Below are positions 45,685 through 54,392 of a stretch of 64,000 nucleotides of DNA, piece by piece. The stretch spans positions 1 through 64,000 of the forward strand of contig WFTQ01000050.1 of NCBI GenBank assembly GCA_015485355.1, in the 5' to 3' direction. The stretch's first letter is position 1. The number at the start of each line of letters is the position of its first letter. This DNA comes from a bacterium (GTDB taxonomy: Bacteria; Calditrichota; Calditrichia; RBG-13-44-9; J042). The notes beneath the pieces were generated by a model. It had not been told where the DNA came from and ran no database searches. It was given only the letters and a program-made list of their open reading frames with translations. The position numbers were made by a program, and so were the translations under genes.

Positions 45685-46449
45685 ATGTATGTAGAACGTT
45701 TCGCCGAACTGGTAGAGATCATGAAACGCTTACGTCGGGAATGTCCCTGGGATCGGGAGCAGACCCCGGAAAGCCTCCGACAATACATTCTGGAAGAAGC
45801 CTACGAAACCGTGGAAGCCATCGATGCCGGAAACTGGGAGGAGCTGAAAAAAGAACTGGGCGATCTGCTGTTGCAAATCGTTTTTCAGGCGGAAATCGCC
45901 GAGGAGCGGGGCCGGTTTACCCTGGAAGATGTGATTCAACATATCAATCAAAAACTCATTCAACGGCATCCCCATGTGTTTGGGGGCATCGAGGTAAAAG
46001 ATGCCGAGCATGTCAAAGAAAACTGGGAGCGAATAAAGTATCACCAGGAGAATCGGCGCTCTGTTCTGGAGGGGGTTCCCCGTCATTTGAGTGCTCTGCT
46101 TCGTGCCCAGCGGTTGCAGGACAAGGCGGCTCAAGTGGGCTTCGACTGGGATGATCCCCGGGGGGTTCTGGAGAAAATTCAGGAAGAACTTCGGGAACTG
46201 GACAAGGCCCTCCATGCTCAGGCGCGGGAAAAAATGGAAGAAGAAATCGGGGACATGTTGTTTTCCCTGGTCAACCTGAGCCGATTCCTCAAAATAAACG
46301 CCGAAGACGCCCTGCGAACGACGATCAACAAATTCATTGCCCGCTTTCACTACATCGAGCAGAAACTGAGTGAACAAAATAAGTCGATTCGGGAGGCATC
46401 GTTCAAGGAAATGGATGCCCTCTGGGAAGAAGCGAAAAACAGGGAATAA
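45685..46449 (+). CDS. mazG: Nucleoside triphosphate pyrophosphohydrolase MazG
   Basis: MazG hydrolyses NTPs and dNTPs to monophosphates, and removes aberrant nucleotides. The protein is 254 residues with two tandem MazG helical domains. The first has CPWDREQTPESLRQYILEEA, YETVEAID and ELGDLLLQIVFQAEI, giving the E-E-x-x-E/D-x-x-D metal set. The second has KIQEELREL, KMEEEIGDMLFSLVNLSRF and a final FKEMDALWEEAK. The length and both domains match E. coli MazG. There is no adjacent mazEF. A kinase gene begins 50 bases later on the same strand. Confidence 0.96.
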   Translation: MYVERFAELVEIMKRLRRECPWDREQTPESLRQYILEEAYETVEAIDAGNWEELKKELGDLLLQIVFQAEIAEERGRFTLEDVIQHINQKLIQRHPHVFGGIEVKDAEHVKENWERIKYHQENRRSVLEGVPRHLSALLRAQRLQDKAAQVGFDWDDPRGVLEKIQEELRELDKALHAQAREKMEEEIGDMLFSLVNLSRFLKINAEDALRTTINKFIARFHYIEQKLSEQNKSIREASFKEMDALWEEAKNRE

Positions 46450-46499: not shown

Positions 46500-48533
46500 A
46501 TGGCTCTACAATTTCTGAACTTTGCCCTGGTTACCTCTGCGGCCGTACCCCTGTTACTCCTCTGGTTGCTCTTTAACCAGAAAAAAAAGGAGATTTACTT
46601 TTCCATTTACGTGTACTTGACCATCCTGACCAGCATCGACGCCCTGGCAACTCTGATTTTGGTCAACACCCATCTCCCCGAAACGGCCCTCATGGCGGCC
46701 CGAATCCGCCTGATCACCGAAAGCTTCATCATCGCCATAGTATTTTATCTGGCCAAAACGGTGGACCTGTTCACCAATATTCCGCGTCCATCCCTAAGGA
46801 ACACCCTGGTTTTTTTCGGGGCCATGGGCATTTCCCTGATGGGGCTGTTGAACCTGATGATTCGGGACCTCCAGCATACCGGCATGGGCTTTTTCCCGGT
46901 GTTTTCCCCCTACTACTGGGTATTCATTCTGTTTTATTTTCTGATTTTCTATCTCATCTTCGTCGACATTGTCAGCAAATACCGCCGTTCCCGAAGGAAA
47001 CAGGAAATCCAGGATGTGCGAGAAATTCTGGTGGGTATCTATCCCTCTACTTTTTTTTCTACCCTGATTCTCTATATTTTGCCCTATTGGACAACGACGC
47101 ATCCGTTCATCTTTCTGGCATATTTCGTGCTCCCCTGCTTATTGTTGTACACGGCCTTCCGATTTTCCATCATCACCATCGATGCCCGCGTTCACTTCCT
47201 CGTACCGCAACTCCTTTTTTTTGCTCTGGTCATGCTGGGACTGTTTATTTACCTGCCCCCCTTAAAACAACTGCCCTGGTTGCTCCTCAGCATTCCCTTT
47301 TCGGTGGCGGTGATCCTGTTGTCGAACGCCCTCACCGGTCAGTTCTTTAACTGGATCAGCCGATTTCAGGTGGATTTGGACTCCGGGCTGGATAAAAAGA
47401 TGGAAGAATTTTCCTCGGAAATCATCAAATTCATAGACCAGGAAAACCTGTTGAATTTCGTGGGGGATTTCTGCCAGAAAACGTTGCAGTTCAACAAATG
47501 CGCCATCCTCACCCTGCAGTACGATGTACCGCCCTACCAAATTGCTTATTTCAGGAATTACGATCGCAATCCTTTCCGGCAAATGCTGGAAAGCGGTTCC
47601 TCCCCCATTCTGGAGTTGCTGGAAGAGCAAAAGACCATCATCAACAAATTCTCTTTTTCACCGGGCAGTGTGATTTACGAACTGATGGATCAACTGGACG
47701 TATACCTGGTGTTGCCCATCATGGGTAAAAACGAGCTCATGGGCATTGTTTTTCTGGGAGGCAGCCGCAAACAGACCAAAATCTCGGAGCGGCAGGTCCA
47801 ATTTTTAAAAATCATCGGCACCCAGGTGGGCATTGCCTTAGAAAACATCCGCACCCTGCATCAGACCATTCAATCTCAGAAGATGGCCGAGATTGGGATG
47901 CTGGCCTCCCAGCTGGCCCACGATTTCCAATCGTTTATCACCATCGTCAAACTGGAAAATTCCAGTAATGAACGCCTCAAACAACATGCCCACTATATGG
48001 AAAAATTGGTGCAGGATCTGCTGAATTACGCTCGTCCTCAAGAACTCAAATTGACCCCGGTAAAAATCAATCATCTCATCGACATGAGCCTGGATCTGGT
48101 GGACATTCCACCGGACGTGCTTATCGAAAAGCATTATTCCGAAGACTTACCCGAAATTCAAGTCGATGTGGGACAGATGCGCCGGGTGTTTACCAACTTA
48201 TTCGAAAACAGTATTCATGCCATGCGCCATCCTCGAGAGAAACGCCTGAAGATTACCACCCGACCGCTACGGCCCCTAACCAAATTGAAGCGCAGTCCCT
48301 GGATTTACATCGAAATCCTGGACACAGGCGAAGGCATTCCGGAAGAATACCTGGAAAAAATTTTTGAACCGTTTTTCACCACCCACAAACCGGACGGGGG
48401 AACGGGAATGGGACTGGCCATCGTTAAACAGATCATCACCCGACACCACGGCTTCATTGATGTAACCAGTAAACCCGGCAAAGGGACGATCTTCAACATC
48501 CGACTGCCCTATTTCATAAAAGGGGGTTCCTAA
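46500..48533 (+). CDS. Membrane sensor histidine kinase (multi-TM, GAF, HATPase)
   Basis: The protein is 677 residues. Residues 1-285 contain roughly eight to nine membrane spans with short loops, a polytopic sensor module. A GAF domain spans about 295-455 (KCAILTLQYD, VLPIMGKNELMGIVFLGG). The phosphoacceptor helix reads MAEIGMLASQLAHDFQSF, with the histidine in LAHDFQ (an NtrB-like H-D-F variant). The HATPase has N-box RVFTNLFENSIHAM, EILDTGEGIPEEYL, FEPFFTTHKPDGGTGMGLAI and a G2 loop. The next gene starts 1 base after its stop and encodes a sigma-54 activator, so they are a kinase-regulator pair. The overall plan resembles PrsK-type kinases but the H-box does not match that family closely. 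Confidence 0.92.
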   Translation: MALQFLNFALVTSAAVPLLLLWLLFNQKKKEIYFSIYVYLTILTSIDALATLILVNTHLPETALMAARIRLITESFIIAIVFYLAKTVDLFTNIPRPSLRNTLVFFGAMGISLMGLLNLMIRDLQHTGMGFFPVFSPYYWVFILFYFLIFYLIFVDIVSKYRRSRRKQEIQDVREILVGIYPSTFFSTLILYILPYWTTTHPFIFLAYFVLPCLLLYTAFRFSIITIDARVHFLVPQLLFFALVMLGLFIYLPPLKQLPWLLLSIPFSVAVILLSNALTGQFFNWISRFQVDLDSGLDKKMEEFSSEIIKFIDQENLLNFVGDFCQKTLQFNKCAILTLQYDVPPYQIAYFRNYDRNPFRQMLESGSSPILELLEEQKTIINKFSFSPGSVIYELMDQLDVYLVLPIMGKNELMGIVFLGGSRKQTKISERQVQFLKIIGTQVGIALENIRTLHQTIQSQKMAEIGMLASQLAHDFQSFITIVKLENSSNERLKQHAHYMEKLVQDLLNYARPQELKLTPVKINHLIDMSLDLVDIPPDVLIEKHYSEDLPEIQVDVGQMRRVFTNLFENSIHAMRHPREKRLKITTRPLRPLTKLKRSPWIYIEILDTGEGIPEEYLEKIFEPFFTTHKPDGGTGMGLAIVKQIITRHHGFIDVTSKPGKGTIFNIRLPYFIKGGS

Positions 48534-48534
48534 A

Positions 48535-49881
48535 ATGACAATAGAAAACAACAAAATCTTGATTGTTGAAGACAATGTGATCTGGTGCGAAAGCTACAAA
48601 AAGTGGATCGGAGATGAATATACGATAAAATTGGCATTCAATAAAACCGAAGCGCTGGAGTTGTGCCATTCCTTTGAACCCGACCTGATTATCCTGGATC
48701 TGGGCCTGCCCAACATTCAAGACGGTTTCGATTTACTGGACGAAATCATCAAGATGGGTAAAGACTGGCAGGTTATTGTCGTGACCTCGTTCAAAGACCA
48801 TCAATATGCTTTGGAAGCGCAGAAACGGGGAGCCTACTCCTATTTCTCCAAGGGGGAAAACATAGAGGAAGAACTTCCCTATCTGGTGAAACAGGCGTTA
48901 CGCATGCAACGCTTAGAGCGCGAGAACAAGGAATTGCGTTCCAAGTTGCGCCAAAACATTCGATACGATGACATTGTCGCCGTCAGTCGCCAGATGCAGG
49001 AAATTTTATCTTTGATCGAACAGATTAAAGACAGCAAAGAGCCGGTCCTGATTACCGGAGAGTCGGGGGTTGGCAAGGAAGTACTGGCCCGTCATATATT
49101 TAAACAAAACCCGCATTATAACAAAAATTTCGTGGCCATTAATTGCGCCGCTTTACCCACACATCTGCTGGAAAGCGAGCTATTCGGTTATGAAAAGGGA
49201 GCATTCACGGGGGCCGCCCGTACCACCCGGGGAAAAATCGAATTGGCCCATCGGGGCACCCTGTTTCTGGACGAGATTGGCGACTTGCCCTTGGAATTGC
49301 AAGGCAAACTCCTACGGGTGCTGGAAGAAAAGCGGTTCTATCGGCTGGGCGGCGAAAAGGAAATCGAAGTCGACTTCCGCCTGATCTCCGCCACCAACCA
49401 TTGCCTCAACGAAATGGTCAAGGAAGGCAAATTCCGCGAAGACCTTTACTACCGTATTAACGTTATCCCCATTCATATCCCCCCGCTCCGGGAACGACCG
49501 GACGACATCCCGGCCATGGTGGAGTATTTCTCCGAACAATTTTGCCGGGAAAACAACCTCCCTAAACCCAAATTCACCAGTCGCGTGATCGCCTTTTTGT
49601 CCCACCTGCAATGGGAAGGTAACGCCCGGGAACTGGAGAACACCATAAAACGCCTGATTTTGCTGAACCGGCAACAAATCGATATTCAAGACTTGCCTCC
49701 GGACATTATCGAAGAATCGAACAATTTCCTGGATAAGGCCCTGGCGAACGAATTGTCTCTGGAGGAAGTCTCCCGAATCTACGTGCGGATGGTGCTGGAT
49801 CTGAAAAAGGGCAACAAAAAAGAGGCCTGTAAGCTGTTAAAAATCAACTATAGAACACTAATGCGCAAACTGAACGGGTAG
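48535..49881 (+). CDS. NtrC-family sigma-54-dependent response regulator
   Basis: The protein is 448 residues. The receiver has ILIVEDN, the phospho-acceptor in [15 protein letters not shown] and a lysine in YFSKGE. The AAA+ domain has Walker A TGESGVGK, the sigma-54 contact loop [10 protein letters not shown], Walker [13 protein letters not shown], the second region of homology RLISATNH and arginine fingers in [11 protein letters not shown]. The C-terminal Fis-type helix-turn-helix is [24 protein letters not shown]. It should activate a sigma-54 promoter from an upstream dyad when phosphorylated by the kinase encoded just before it. A dyad and a -24/-12 promoter lie right after this gene. 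Confidence 0.96.
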
Positions 49882-49970
49882 CTTCTCTTTGCTCCGCTTC
49901 GGCCCGTCGTTGGGAATCTTATCGACGATGGGCGAACGGATCGGCTCCCTGTTCCCGGGCGGCGCCCACC

Positions 49971-49993
49971 AAGATTGCATTTTATGCAATCTT
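49971..49993. promoter_or_regulatory. Perfect 10-bp inverted repeat, candidate enhancer for the sigma-54 activator
   Basis: AAGATTGCAT (49971-49980), TTT, ATGCAATCTT (49984-49993). The half-site GATTGCA recurs at 50005-50011. The repeat is centred about 165 bases upstream of the predicted transcription start of the next operon, a usual distance for NtrC-type activator sites. It could instead be a weak AT-rich hairpin at the end of the regulator gene, but there is no T tract. Confidence 0.55.
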
Positions 49994-50120
49994 GAACATT
50001 CCCCGATTGCACTTTCCGCACTGCGCCGATCGCATGATGGACGCATCTTCAATATATCCAACAGGATACAGCATTTTCTTTTCAATTGGTTGTTATTACT
50101 ACAGTTACAACCACTTTATT

Positions 50121-50137
50121 CTGGCATGGTAATTGAT
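50121..50137 (+). promoter_or_regulatory. Sigma-54 (-24/-12) promoter
   Basis: The stretch CTGGCATGGTAATTGAT fits YTGGCACG-N4-TTGCW: GG at 50123-50124 and the -12 dinucleotide at 50135-50136 are separated by exactly 10 bases. The one deviation is GA for GC at -12. Transcription would start near 50148, 19 bases ahead of the ATG at 50167. Confidence 0.6.
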
Positions 50138-50166
50138 TCTTGAACAAGAAAAAAGGGTGAGGGAGC

Positions 50167-50415
50167 ATGATTCAAGAAGAGTCTTTGCTGCAAACGAAAA
50201 TCGAAATGCTTCGGGTCAAGCGAGAGGACCAAACCTGGTACTACAAGCTGATCATTGGGACGGATCCGGACACCTCGATTATCATTACAGACACCGATTT
50301 CAAGGCTCTGTTATCCGATTTACCCAATATCTTGTCCACCGTCATACAATCGCAGGTACTGGTTGAAACATCAAAACAGAGGAGAAATCGTCACCATGAA
50401 GGTACTCGTATTTGA
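50167..50415 (+). CDS. Small protein of unknown function, first gene after the sigma-54 promoter
   Basis: I do not recognise this 82-residue protein. The middle reads as alternating strands and helices: TWYYKLIIGTDPDTSIIITD, then DFKALLSDLPNILSTVIQS, then a basic tail QRRNRHHEGTRI. It has no signal peptide or membrane span. AGGGTGAGGGAG sits just ahead of the ATG, a convincing ribosome site, and the gene is the first one behind the -24/-12 promoter. Its end overlaps the start of the degenerate receiver gene by 20 bases, so the two are probably translated together. Confidence 0.7.
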   Translation: MIQEESLLQTKIEMLRVKREDQTWYYKLIIGTDPDTSIIITDTDFKALLSDLPNILSTVIQSQVLVETSKQRRNRHHEGTRI

Positions 50416-50776
50416 AACCAGCAAGGATCGGGCAAAGCTCATTCGCGATTTATTGGCCGATTACCGTTACAAAATCTGCATCAACTACGGGGGGGATCAC
50501 ATTCTGTCTCAAATCAGGGAAGACCGACCGTCATTAATCATTTTGAACGCCAATTTAAAGCCCACCTCGGGCATTACCATTCTGGAAAAATTAAAGCGAG
50601 ACCCCCGATTCCGAAAAATTCCGGTGATCTTAATTTCCAATTTTAATTCTCAGGAACTGGCCCGAAAAGTCAAACAGTTTCCCAACGTGGATTACTTGGA
50701 AGAGCCTTTCAAGATTAAAAATTTCCGCCACATGGTGGAAAGATGGATCAATTTCCGCAGTTTATACGTGAATTGA
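50396..50776 (+). CDS. Degenerate (pseudo-)receiver domain protein
   Basis: The protein is 126 residues, a stand-alone CheY-like fold. The fold is clear (MKVLVFETSKDRAKLI, PSLIILNANLKPTSGITIL, IPVILISNFNS, YLEEPFKIKNF) but the phosphorylation site is lost: the acidic pair after strand 1 is E-T, the phospho-acceptor aspartate is N51 (family LLLD, here IILN), and the conserved lysine of the TKP loop is E (EEP). It therefore cannot be phosphorylated in the usual way and probably binds a partner in a fixed state. AGAGGAG lies ahead of ATG 50396; the longer open frame upstream reads across the neighbouring gene and is rejected. Confidence 0.85.
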   Translation: MKVLVFETSKDRAKLIRDLLADYRYKICINYGGDHILSQIREDRPSLIILNANLKPTSGITILEKLKRDPRFRKIPVILISNFNSQELARKVKQFPNVDYLEEPFKIKNFRHMVERWINFRSLYVN

Positions 50777-50787
50777 GGGAGGGTACC

Positions 50788-50886
50788 ATGAGTCTTCTTT
50801 GGCTTACCCAATGGCATTTATTTTTGATCTTCGGACTGGTGGTGTTGTTCCGCTGGATGACCTACGTGAATAAAACGACCAAGTAG
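50788..50886 (+). CDS. 32-residue single-pass membrane microprotein
   Basis: A short frame of 33 codons starts 11 bases after the pseudo-receiver stop. GGGAGGG lies four bases ahead of the ATG, stronger than most ribosome sites in the window. The peptide is MSLLWLTQWHLFLIFGLVVL plus a short basic tail ending NKTTK. It has one hydrophobic segment of about 17 residues. The tail suggests N-out, C-in insertion. It overlaps the 3' end of an HD-domain gene on the opposite strand by 69 bases, so one of the two ends may be misjudged. No homologue is known to me. Confidence 0.6.
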   Translation: MSLLWLTQWHLFLIFGLVVLFRWMTYVNKTTK

Positions 50887-51819
50887 GGGGATGAACTTGC
50901 TCCAACGGGAGCCGGGAAGCAGGTCATATTGCAGAATACGATGAAGGGCATTGAGTTGCCCATCCAGTTGATTGATGAGGGAGAGGGCCATGGCTTCTCG
51001 GGTCATCGGGGGGACGGGGGCTCCTTTTTCCACGTCTCCAGGATGGCTCAGAATCAAGTGTCCCAATTGAATCCAGAGGGAAGGGGGGAAGTCGGACACC
51101 TGCCGCATCTGTTTCTCCACATACACGTATCCCTTCACCACATGGCCAATCAAGCGACCTTCATCCGTATAATCGATAAAGCCGCGGCCCAGATCCAGCT
51201 CCCAGATTTTTCCAATGTCATGCAATACAATGCCACACTTCAAAAGATCGAGGTTCAGTTCCGGATCGTTGTTTCCTAAAACCTGGGCGATGTTCAGCAT
51301 TCCCACCACATGATCCAACAAACCATAAAGATAAACATGGTGCCATAATTTCCCGGCGGGGGTCAGAAAATACCTTTCTGCAAAATCTTTCCGGGAAAAA
51401 ATATGGTGGAGCAATGTTCGCAGATGTTGATTCCGGATGCCATCGATATGCCCATAGAATTGCCGCTTTAATCGGTCTACATCCTTATTCACCGAGGGCA
51501 ACAGCTGGCGAATATCGACGTCTTCGGTCTCCTTTTTCCGGCGAATCTGTATCAGTTTCATCTCGCGCACCCCATTACACATTTGGGGAATCCCCTTCAA
51601 CTTCACCACCGCACCCACGGGGATCTGACGCTCCATCTGCTCGACCCGATTCCACCAGCGGGCCTTCAGACGCCCGCTCCAATCCCCCAGTTCCCACACC
51701 AGATAGGGCTGTCCATTTTGTCTGTAACGCAGCTCTTTTTTCCGCACCACACAAAAGCCCACAAATTCCTTACCCAACGGCGTGGTCTTCAGGCCACAAC
51801 GCTCCGATTTTGGTGCCAT
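50818..51819 (-). CDS. OB-fold/HD-domain protein (YhaM-like 3'-5' exoribonuclease)
   Basis: The protein is 333 residues. Residues 15-100 form an OB-fold nucleic-acid domain (GFCVVRKKELRYRQNGQPYL, VWELGDWSGRLKARWW, VVKLKGIPQM). The HD domain has HHVYLYGLLDHVVGM and LKCGIVLHDIGKIWEL, giving the H...HD metal residues, and HLILSHPG. The same layout is found in YhaM of Firmicutes, which degrades RNA from the 3' end and takes part in plasmid copy control. The last 25 residues (PAEQHHQSEDQK and before) look unlike the family and overlap the microprotein on the other strand. Confidence 0.87.
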   Translation of the reverse strand: MAPKSERCGLKTTPLGKEFVGFCVVRKKELRYRQNGQPYLVWELGDWSGRLKARWWNRVEQMERQIPVGAVVKLKGIPQMCNGVREMKLIQIRRKKETEDVDIRQLLPSVNKDVDRLKRQFYGHIDGIRNQHLRTLLHHIFSRKDFAERYFLTPAGKLWHHVYLYGLLDHVVGMLNIAQVLGNNDPELNLDLLKCGIVLHDIGKIWELDLGRGFIDYTDEGRLIGHVVKGYVYVEKQMRQVSDFPPSLWIQLGHLILSHPGDVEKGAPVPPMTREAMALSLINQLDGQLNALHRILQYDLLPGSRWSKFIPLLGRFIHVGHPAEQHHQSEDQK

Positions 51820-52682: not shown

Positions 52683-54392
52683 CTACTTGTTTGCTTCATA
52701 GCTTTTAAACTGGTTCTTGCCGGCGGCGATGGCGGCCCGCACGGCCTTTTCCGCCTTGACCATCAATGCTAACGCTTCACACCCCATTGTGGGGAATTCC
52801 ACACCCCCACAGGCCACATTGACCCCTACCATATGGCCCCCACTCCAAACAGGCCGTTCGGCCACGGCCTGACAGATACGCTGAACCGTAGGGGTTATTT
52901 CGGCCAACGGTTTCTCCACCCACAATACCGCAAATAAATTATCATGCAGCCGGAAAATATAATTGCTATTATCCAAATAAGGCAACAGGAAAGACAAAAA
53001 TTCCCGGATAAAATTTTTCCGCAATTCCTGTCGATGCTCCTTCTCCACAAACTCGACCTGGAAATAGGTTACCGAAAACGGTCGCTGGTAGGTCTGACAC
53101 CGATCAATCTCCTTCTGAAGCTCCATCTTAAAAGCCAGGAAATTTCCGATGTCGGTTTCTAAGTCGAACAAATTGCGCTGTTGCAATATATTAAACAATC
53201 GATTGTGCAACAGGAAAATCGTCACTTGATTGGTAATGGTTTCCAGAACGTTTTTATATTGAACTTTAAAACGTCCCGGCTGAAACGATTCCAACACCAG
53301 AGCCATGGTTTGGTGTTCCTCTCCCTGAAAAGGAATGGCAATTAAGGATCGATACTCTCTGGCAGGCTCCTCGTTCAGAGAAAAACGGGGAATGTAATTT
53401 TGTTTAGTGGCCAGGTCTTCCACCAGCAGGTGTTGCCGTTTACGCAGCACCCATCCCACCAGGCCTTCGTGGAGCTGAAAGCGATACCCCGAAGTCACGC
53501 CCCGGACGTCTCCCATGCTGAACACAATCCGGCCCTGCCCCTCTTCGGCCCGGCGGACGACGAAGACACGATCGGCGTGAAAATATTGTTTTAAAAAGCG
53601 TCCCAGATAATCCCACAATTCATCGGTGCTTTGGAATCCCACCATCCGGTTGCTGAATTCATTCAATATCCGCGCAATCCAGTTCTCCGTTTCATATTCA
53701 TACAACTGATTGCTTTCCACCAATTGCAGTTCGATCAACTGAGCGAACCGTTCCAGTAACTGCAGATCATTTTGCCCAAAGGCTTCTACGGCGTGGGCAT
53801 CCACACAAAGCACACCCAATACCTTCCCTTCAAATTGAACCGGAACTCCGGCGAAGGATCGTGCGGGCGATTTCCCGGGTTGATAATAAGGCAACAGACG
53901 GTTTCCGTTTTCGGGTAAATGATTTTCGATCAACGAGGTCCGATTTTTCAGCACCAGGGGGGGCAGGCCCGTCTGAAGGTCGTAAAAACGTTCTTTGTGA
54001 AAGGCTTTGGAGTGATCGGTTATAAAATAACGCAAATAAAATTTCTTCTTTTCCAGATTGAGCAACAGGAAACAGACCGTATCCGCCACCAGGGTTTGTT
54101 TGATCAAAGGGAATACCGTATCCAGAAACTGCTCAAAAATCTTTTCCACCTCCCTGTCAGTTTCGAGCTTGACCAGATCGCTTTTGGGAAGACCGTCATC
54201 CTGCTCCGGATGTTCCTCCAATTTATCCGGAATGTTTTGTTGGTTCCCATAATAGTAAACGGCTGCCGCTGCAGCCACCACCAGAAGTATTTTGAAGATC
54301 AGATACGGCCAGGAATTCGGCAATAGGCTGATAAAGAAGGCAAGGCTTATCATCAGCAAGAAAGCTTCCCGGTACGGATGAAGTTTCAGCAT
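52683..54392 (-). CDS. Membrane-anchored GAF-GAF protein with degenerate GGDEF-like domain
   Basis: The protein is 569 residues. Two N-terminal hydrophobic segments (about 10-25 and 28-47) anchor it. Two GAF domains follow (about 85-235 with FAGVPVQFEGKVLGVLCVD; 250-400 with FQLHEGLVGWVLRKRQHLL and LIAIPFQGEEHQTMAL). The last 160 residues look like a diguanylate cyclase that has lost its active site: LETDIGNFLAFKMELQKEID stands where D-x-LTGLxNR is expected, and LHDNLFAVLW stands where GGDEF is expected. It should sense a ligand or redox state and signal by contact. It lies 39 bases after the anti-sigma gene and may tune that sigma factor. The start has no clear ribosome site. Confidence 0.82.
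   Translation of the reverse strand: MLKLHPYREAFLLMISLAFFISLLPNSWPYLIFKILLVVAAAAAVYYYGNQQNIPDKLEEHPEQDDGLPKSDLVKLETDREVEKIFEQFLDTVFPLIKQTLVADTVCFLLLNLEKKKFYLRYFITDHSKAFHKERFYDLQTGLPPLVLKNRTSLIENHLPENGNRLLPYYQPGKSPARSFAGVPVQFEGKVLGVLCVDAHAVEAFGQNDLQLLERFAQLIELQLVESNQLYEYETENWIARILNEFSNRMVGFQSTDELWDYLGRFLKQYFHADRVFVVRRAEEGQGRIVFSMGDVRGVTSGYRFQLHEGLVGWVLRKRQHLLVEDLATKQNYIPRFSLNEEPAREYRSLIAIPFQGEEHQTMALVLESFQPGRFKVQYKNVLETITNQVTIFLLHNRLFNILQQRNLFDLETDIGNFLAFKMELQKEIDRCQTYQRPFSVTYFQVEFVEKEHRQELRKNFIREFLSFLLPYLDNSNYIFRLHDNLFAVLWVEKPLAEITPTVQRICQAVAERPVWSGGHMVGVNVACGGVEFPTMGCEALALMVKAEKAVRAAIAAGKNQFKSYEANK

Follow-up and report, generated by a model that had tools for sequence, protein, structure and literature searches.

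The 64,000-nucleotide stretch analyzed here (hereafter the window; positions 1 to 64,000 of contig WFTQ01000050.1, assembly GCA_015485355.1) belongs to a Calditrichota genome of 3.44 Mb (114 contigs, 98.7% complete). It carries the genes of a sensor histidine kinase and an NtrC-type activator, preceded by mazG and followed by a small operon encoding an 82-residue protein, a stand-alone receiver that has lost its phospho-acceptor (the pseudo-receiver), and a membrane peptide (Table 1). An initial annotation of this DNA had described the gene anatomy correctly but had missed a second activator site, an operator on the mazG side, the apparent single-target nature of the activator, and the spread of the system across the phylum. 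The entire analysis was computational, combining Pfam, NCBIfam, PDB, AlphaFold, and Foldseek with sequence comparison across 40 Calditrichota genomes, all of one class; control regions were searched for in the genomes with exact motif patterns. Our results suggest that kinase and activator form a dedicated circuit serving one sigma-54 promoter, with the amount of pseudo-receiver as its output.

Table 1. Features of the locus, with their positions in the window and the basis of each assignment.
Feature	Position	Strand	Basis
Dyad upstream of the mazG operon, TTGTAAAAAATGCAA	45572..45586		Exact motif match
Putative operator, TTGTATTTTCTGCAA	45647..45661		Just downstream of a -10-like TATATT (45629); repression inferred
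mazG (nucleotide pyrophosphohydrolase)	45685..46449	+	Pfam E=7e-41; synteny
Sensor histidine kinase, 677 aa	46500..48533	+	Pfam GAF and HATPase_c; 8-9 predicted membrane segments
NtrC-type activator, 448 aa	48535..49881	+	Pfam Response_reg, Sigma54_activat, AAA lid, HTH_8 (Fis-type)
Distal enhancer site, TTGCATTTTATGCAA	49975..49989		Exact motif; core of dyad 49971-49993
Proximal enhancer site, TTGCACTTTCCGCAC	50007..50021		32 bp past distal site; right half decayed; spacing in relatives
-24/-12 (sigma-54) promoter, TGGCATGGTAATTGAT	50122..50137	+	GG-to-GA spacing 10; predicted start near 50148
82-aa protein	50167..50415	+	Calditrichota-only family; AlphaFold model (pLDDT 72) of three strands plus a long helix
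Stand-alone pseudo-receiver, 126 aa	50396..50776	+	Pfam PF00072 Response_reg E=9.6e-14; N51 for Asp, E103 for beta5 Lys
Single-span membrane peptide, 32 aa, MSLLWLTQWHLFLIFGLVVLFRWMTYVNKTTK	50788..50886	+	One hydrophobic segment

The order mazG, kinase, activator, 82-residue protein (where present), and pseudo-receiver is kept on the same strand wherever a contig is long enough, one genome apart (see below), and mazG lies upstream of the pair in nearly all relatives. The initial annotation had made its reading depend on the small genes staying beside the pair in related genomes, and they are indeed conserved in the phylum. The activator, whose identity across the phylum is 54-96% and whose close relatives in a search were mostly from Calditrichota/Calditrichaeota metagenome-assembled genomes (MAGs), has the make-up of an NtrC-type sigma-54 response regulator, i.e. 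a receiver with acidic pocket, Asp, and Lys, an AAA+ domain, and a Fis-type helix-turn-helix, with upstream sites and a -24/-12 promoter at its target and rpoN in the genome (a single copy in the window genome, alongside about 19 activators of NtrC type). A motif check across relatives found E12/D13, D55, K106, Walker A, and GAFTGA to be kept, which includes the residues that activation by phosphorylation would require. The membrane-bound GAF kinase described earlier next to this activator with its GAFTGA loop and intact receiver is present and adjacent, but its input part varies among families: it comprises membrane segments and GAF (about 675 aa) in families f1 and f3 and in G006 of f2, lacks predicted membrane segments in the other f2 genomes, and takes a shortened, soluble form of about 345 aa in f4-f6. 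Because the input part varies while the output is fixed, the signal probably differs between families.

A scan of the gap between activator and pseudo-receiver at all loci revealed TTGYA-N5-TRCAA sites that are paired, 31-33 bp from start to start, in nearly every relative; this corresponds to about three helical turns, the spacing that would place activator dimers on the same side of the DNA. In the window, the inverted repeat around the distal site had been given perfect 10-bp arms and is located where stated, but its arms are better read as 11 bp (49970-49994), and the GATTGCA at 50005-50011, previously regarded as a spare half-site, is the remnant of the second full site. The TGGCA-N6-TTGA promoter that had been proposed with it was likewise found, and its counterpart (TGGCAY-N5-TTGN) lies 105-120 bp past the proximal site in nearly all genomes (94 bp in the outlier G004), and at each locus 95-100% of 200 shuffled sequences score no higher than it does. 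Loci without the 82-residue gene have the same sites and promoter directly before the pseudo-receiver. This phylogenetic footprinting supports the earlier proposal that the activator probably drives the operon from the dyad.

Of the 40 genomes, 28 contain the exact tandem pair, at this locus every time, and the reversed control pattern gave 0 matches. G036 has it on each of two contigs that are identical in sequence, and the remaining genomes show one exact and one imperfect site or have broken contigs; in G017, which is 100% complete on one contig, the sole tandem pair is that of the operon. Because the exact pair is confined to one locus, the activator looks like a single-target regulator. 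Single sites are more frequent (27 TTGYA-N5-TRCAA sites in the window genome against 7 of the reversed pattern), and the hits inspected in the window genome and five relatives are mostly intragenic. A recurrent lone dyad is found 29-48 bp before mazG, downstream of a -10-like hexamer, in many genomes of f1, f2, f3, and f6, and its place close to where the mazG operon is predicted to start suggests that the activator represses its own operon. A sigma-54 promoter before mazG was considered and rejected, as a look-alike, GGGCACTTCTATTGTA, shares bases with the dyad in the window but does not do so in the sister species G001. Another well-placed dyad, GATTGTACTTTTTGCAACC at L107 (G000:C39, 2649-2663), lies between a TATAAT-like hexamer, accompanied by a sigma-54-like element (TGGCACAGAAATTGTA), and the start of a ClpB-like gene on the minus strand; its layout is that of the mazG operator, and it could be a second target in the window's genus.

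The pseudo-receiver is the sole operon product that is never lost. Complete orthologues are present in 38 of the 40 genomes and one more (G016) is cut by a contig end, the genome without it (G013) being only 62% complete; outside the class, searches with it gave generic receiver-level matches only. When the two species of the genus to which the window belongs are compared, its codon changes are 55 synonymous against 2 non-synonymous, indicating strong constraint. AlphaFold gives a confident receiver fold (pLDDT 87), and Foldseek places DivK (1m5t, E=2.8e-9, 28% identity) among the closest solved folds, with FrzS also high. The loss of the phospho-acceptor that had been noted in the window, where Asn occupies the position of the phospho-Asp, extends to most of the phylum: Asp is replaced in 33 of 38 genomes (Asn in 31, His in 1, and Ser in 1), and the beta5 Lys-Pro is replaced in all 38 (Glu-Pro in 37, Ser-Pro in 1). 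Asp occurs together with loss of the beta5 Lys in the pseudo-receivers of L071, L082, L086, L087 (genus g14), and L069 (G028). The conserved parts are alpha1 and alpha5 and the C-terminal RW..FRSLY tail; across 33 genomes, conservation is 0.69 for alpha1, 0.85 for the beta5-alpha5 loop, and 0.86 for alpha5, but 0.29 for alpha4, whereas alpha4 in the receiver domain of the activator reaches 0.89 in these genomes. An eroded alpha4 with alpha1 and alpha5 kept fits a receiver that would have lost the phosphorylation switch and retained a docking face. Two records titled Candidatus Brocadia and Deltaproteobacteria (L043 and L046) carry the Calditrichota locus, and their pseudo-receivers match the one in G008 (L044) fully or almost fully; they are apparently mislabelled or contaminated MAGs.

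The two other products are less constant. The 82-residue protein, which had been reported as unrecognised, matches no known family in Pfam, NCBIfam, or PDB; it defines a new family that recurs at the operon locus in 28 of the 40 genomes (with one second match in G037) and has no member in 345 genomes outside the phylum. Its AlphaFold model was built on only 4 sequences, and the best Foldseek match to it reached E=0.24; the three best matches (E 0.24-0.29, not significant) were to Pur-alpha chains, a likeness that was not adopted and serves as a lead only. The gene is missing from f3 and from parts of f1 and f2, and frame-shifted remnants in G008 and G015 indicate that this loss is derived. Its codon changes within the window's genus (31 synonymous, 11 non-synonymous) also point to strong constraint. 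The 32-residue membrane peptide of the initial annotation was confirmed and matches no Pfam family. That its open reading frame (ORF) is a chance product was considered, as similarity places it in the genus only, but a positional search gave counterparts across the phylum: a single-span micro-ORF of 29-40 aa begins -3 to 15 bp after the pseudo-receiver at 27 of 39 loci, whereas shuffling the downstream DNA yields one in 0.4% of cases. Two further loci have a membrane micro-ORF at +89 (27-29 of 39 in all). The counterpart in f4-f6 has the pattern MExx-TM-KGxxIKDDxL and reads like MELFLFIQVIIAAIWVIYKGINIKDDILP; judged from position rather than proven from sequence, the window and f4-f6 peptides are likely of common ancestry. 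Codon changes in this short ORF (7 synonymous, 6 non-synonymous) are less clear.

The gene set, the sites and promoter, their single locus, the pattern of loss, and the decayed active site can be read from sequence comparison, and together they lead us to regard a dedicated, single-target two-component sigma-54 circuit, whose output is the dose of a docking pseudo-receiver, as the probable explanation. The kinase would phosphorylate the activator at D55, and the activator, seated on the tandem sites at 49975 and 50007, would open the promoter at 50122 with RpoN polymerase, leading to expression of the 82-residue protein, the pseudo-receiver, and the membrane peptide, while the lone site near the start of the mazG operon would let the activator limit its own synthesis. 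With a single target detected for the activator, some product of the operon must act outside the circuit, and this would be the pseudo-receiver because it alone is never lost. Control of the pseudo-receiver itself by phosphorylation is unlikely given its decayed pocket; since it could not be switched in that way, its activity would be set by the amount made. The pseudo-receiver would then be the essential output, its amount carrying the signal, and would dock by the face formed by alpha1, the beta5-alpha5 loop, and alpha5 on a protein partner conserved in the phylum, with the membrane peptide and the 82-residue protein as dispensable helpers that may contribute to anchoring at the membrane or to the choice of partner.

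The main rival is pure feedback, in which the pseudo-receiver and its helpers bind and damp the kinase or the activator and the real outputs lie under weak, unrecognised sites. Receivers usually meet the DHp helices of histidine kinases by the alpha1/beta5-alpha5 face, which is the face conserved here, and the layout is autogenous. A precedent is PspA, which is reported to regulate PspF negatively (PMC3128695). This explanation is nevertheless unlikely: no other exact tandem site was found in the 28 genomes that have the pair, and alpha1 of the pseudo-receiver (DRAKLIRDLL) is unlike that of the activator (W..SY.KW), which the same kinase must recognize. A broad regulator, with many targets under single or degenerate sites and the operon as one among them, would account for the excess of single sites over the reversed pattern and for the dyad before the ClpB-like gene; we consider it more doubtful still, as most of the outside sites inspected are intragenic and without a tandem partner and the complete genome of G017 has its tandem pair at the operon only. 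That the dyads form a terminator or belong to an unrelated factor is very improbable. The inverted repeat in the window could form a hairpin and directly follows the activator gene, but the terminator reading was rejected because the letters of the half-sites, not their pairing, are conserved; moreover, the five central bases are frequently all A or all T, the sites are paired about three helical turns apart at a fixed distance from the -24/-12 promoter, and no T-run follows in the window. Identity with PrsK/PrsR, the regulators of PEP-CTERM/exosortase surface proteins, is largely refuted and retains a negligible probability: among NCBIfam models, the activator scores best with TIGR02915 (PrsR; 410 bits, and 372-394 in four relatives) and TIGR02916 (PrsK) weakly matches the kinase (93 bits), but these scores are below the curated cut-off of 502.6 and the cut-off of 300, respectively, and none of the 40 genomes has an exosortase above cut-off, so the activator is not PrsR.

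Several points weigh against a dedicated circuit with the pseudo-receiver as its dose-controlled output. G012 has its target operon away from the activator, which is at a contig end; the separation is perhaps an assembly effect, and most genomes of the comparison set are fragmented MAGs. Five genomes retain Asp at the phospho-position of the pseudo-receiver, representing either a reversion or an older state. Binding of the activator to the tandem sites is deduced from their position, and the single-target claim leans on exact motif matches, so that weak or single sites such as the dyad before the ClpB-like gene could be real.

Two convergent genes lie near the operon. An OB-fold and HD-domain protein with a YhaM-like layout (50818-51819, minus strand) overlaps the end of the membrane-peptide ORF by 69 bp in the window and adjoins the operon in f1-f3. 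A GAF-GAF-GGDEF protein with a degenerate GGDEF motif, HDNLF, is encoded at 52686-54392 (minus strand), and many genomes of f1, f2, f3, f4, and f6 carry a homologue convergent with the operon, indicating that its place beside the circuit is old. Elsewhere, a sigma-54 activator gene at G000:C103:20592-21100 is broken into two pieces, with internal TGA and TAG.

NtrC-type activators are usually annotated merely as 'sigma-54 dependent regulator', and here the full wiring from kinase to enhancer, promoter, and product can be followed in the sequences of an entire phylum on which hardly any experimental biology exists. The circuit ends in three proteins without known function, of which two fall below the size that standard annotation picks up, and offers a clear test of why non-phosphorylatable receivers persist for so long, namely whether they act as docking proteins whose level, rather than phosphorylation, is the signal. 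We tentatively propose, at somewhat less than even odds, that a phylum-wide pair serves one promoter whose sole indispensable product is a non-phosphorylatable receiver, so that a phosphorylation signal would set how much of a docking protein is made, and that the new family of small proteins and the membrane microprotein assist it.

The initial annotation knew of no described system with this gene set, which is consistent with our literature search, although most subscription journals were beyond its reach and such an absence is not provable. PspF lacks a receiver and a kinase, and ZraSR-ZraP and other narrow NtrC-family circuits have a kinase and an activator acting on very few promoters. 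The circuit described here differs from ZraSR-ZraP in its output of pseudo-receiver, new small protein, and membrane peptide. It resembles the Psp system in having few sigma-54 targets whose products include small membrane proteins, the PspF regulon being given as pspABCDE and pspG (PMC2763126), but here the activator has a receiver and the output genes are unrelated, with no PspA model matched by the target proteins in a profile search. The likeness to PrsK-PrsR lies in a kinase-activator pair of similar size and in the best NCBIfam model, PrsR being regarded as a regulator of sigma-54 dependent genes (PMC9850573); in contrast, the present pair has a single target operon of other content, in addition to its low scores and the missing exosortase. 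As for the pseudo-receiver, its likeness to the receivers DivK and FrzS is confined to the fold. DivK itself undergoes phosphorylation, and the FrzS receiver belongs to a larger motility protein. A further parallel is found in aspartate-less receivers such as RitR, a known subclass in which Asn is the second commonest substitution (16%) and which as a group tend to keep the pocket (beta5) Lys (PMC4395418); the pseudo-receiver of the window genome shares with them the receiver fold and Asn at the phospho-position but has also lost the beta5 Lys and carries no output domain.

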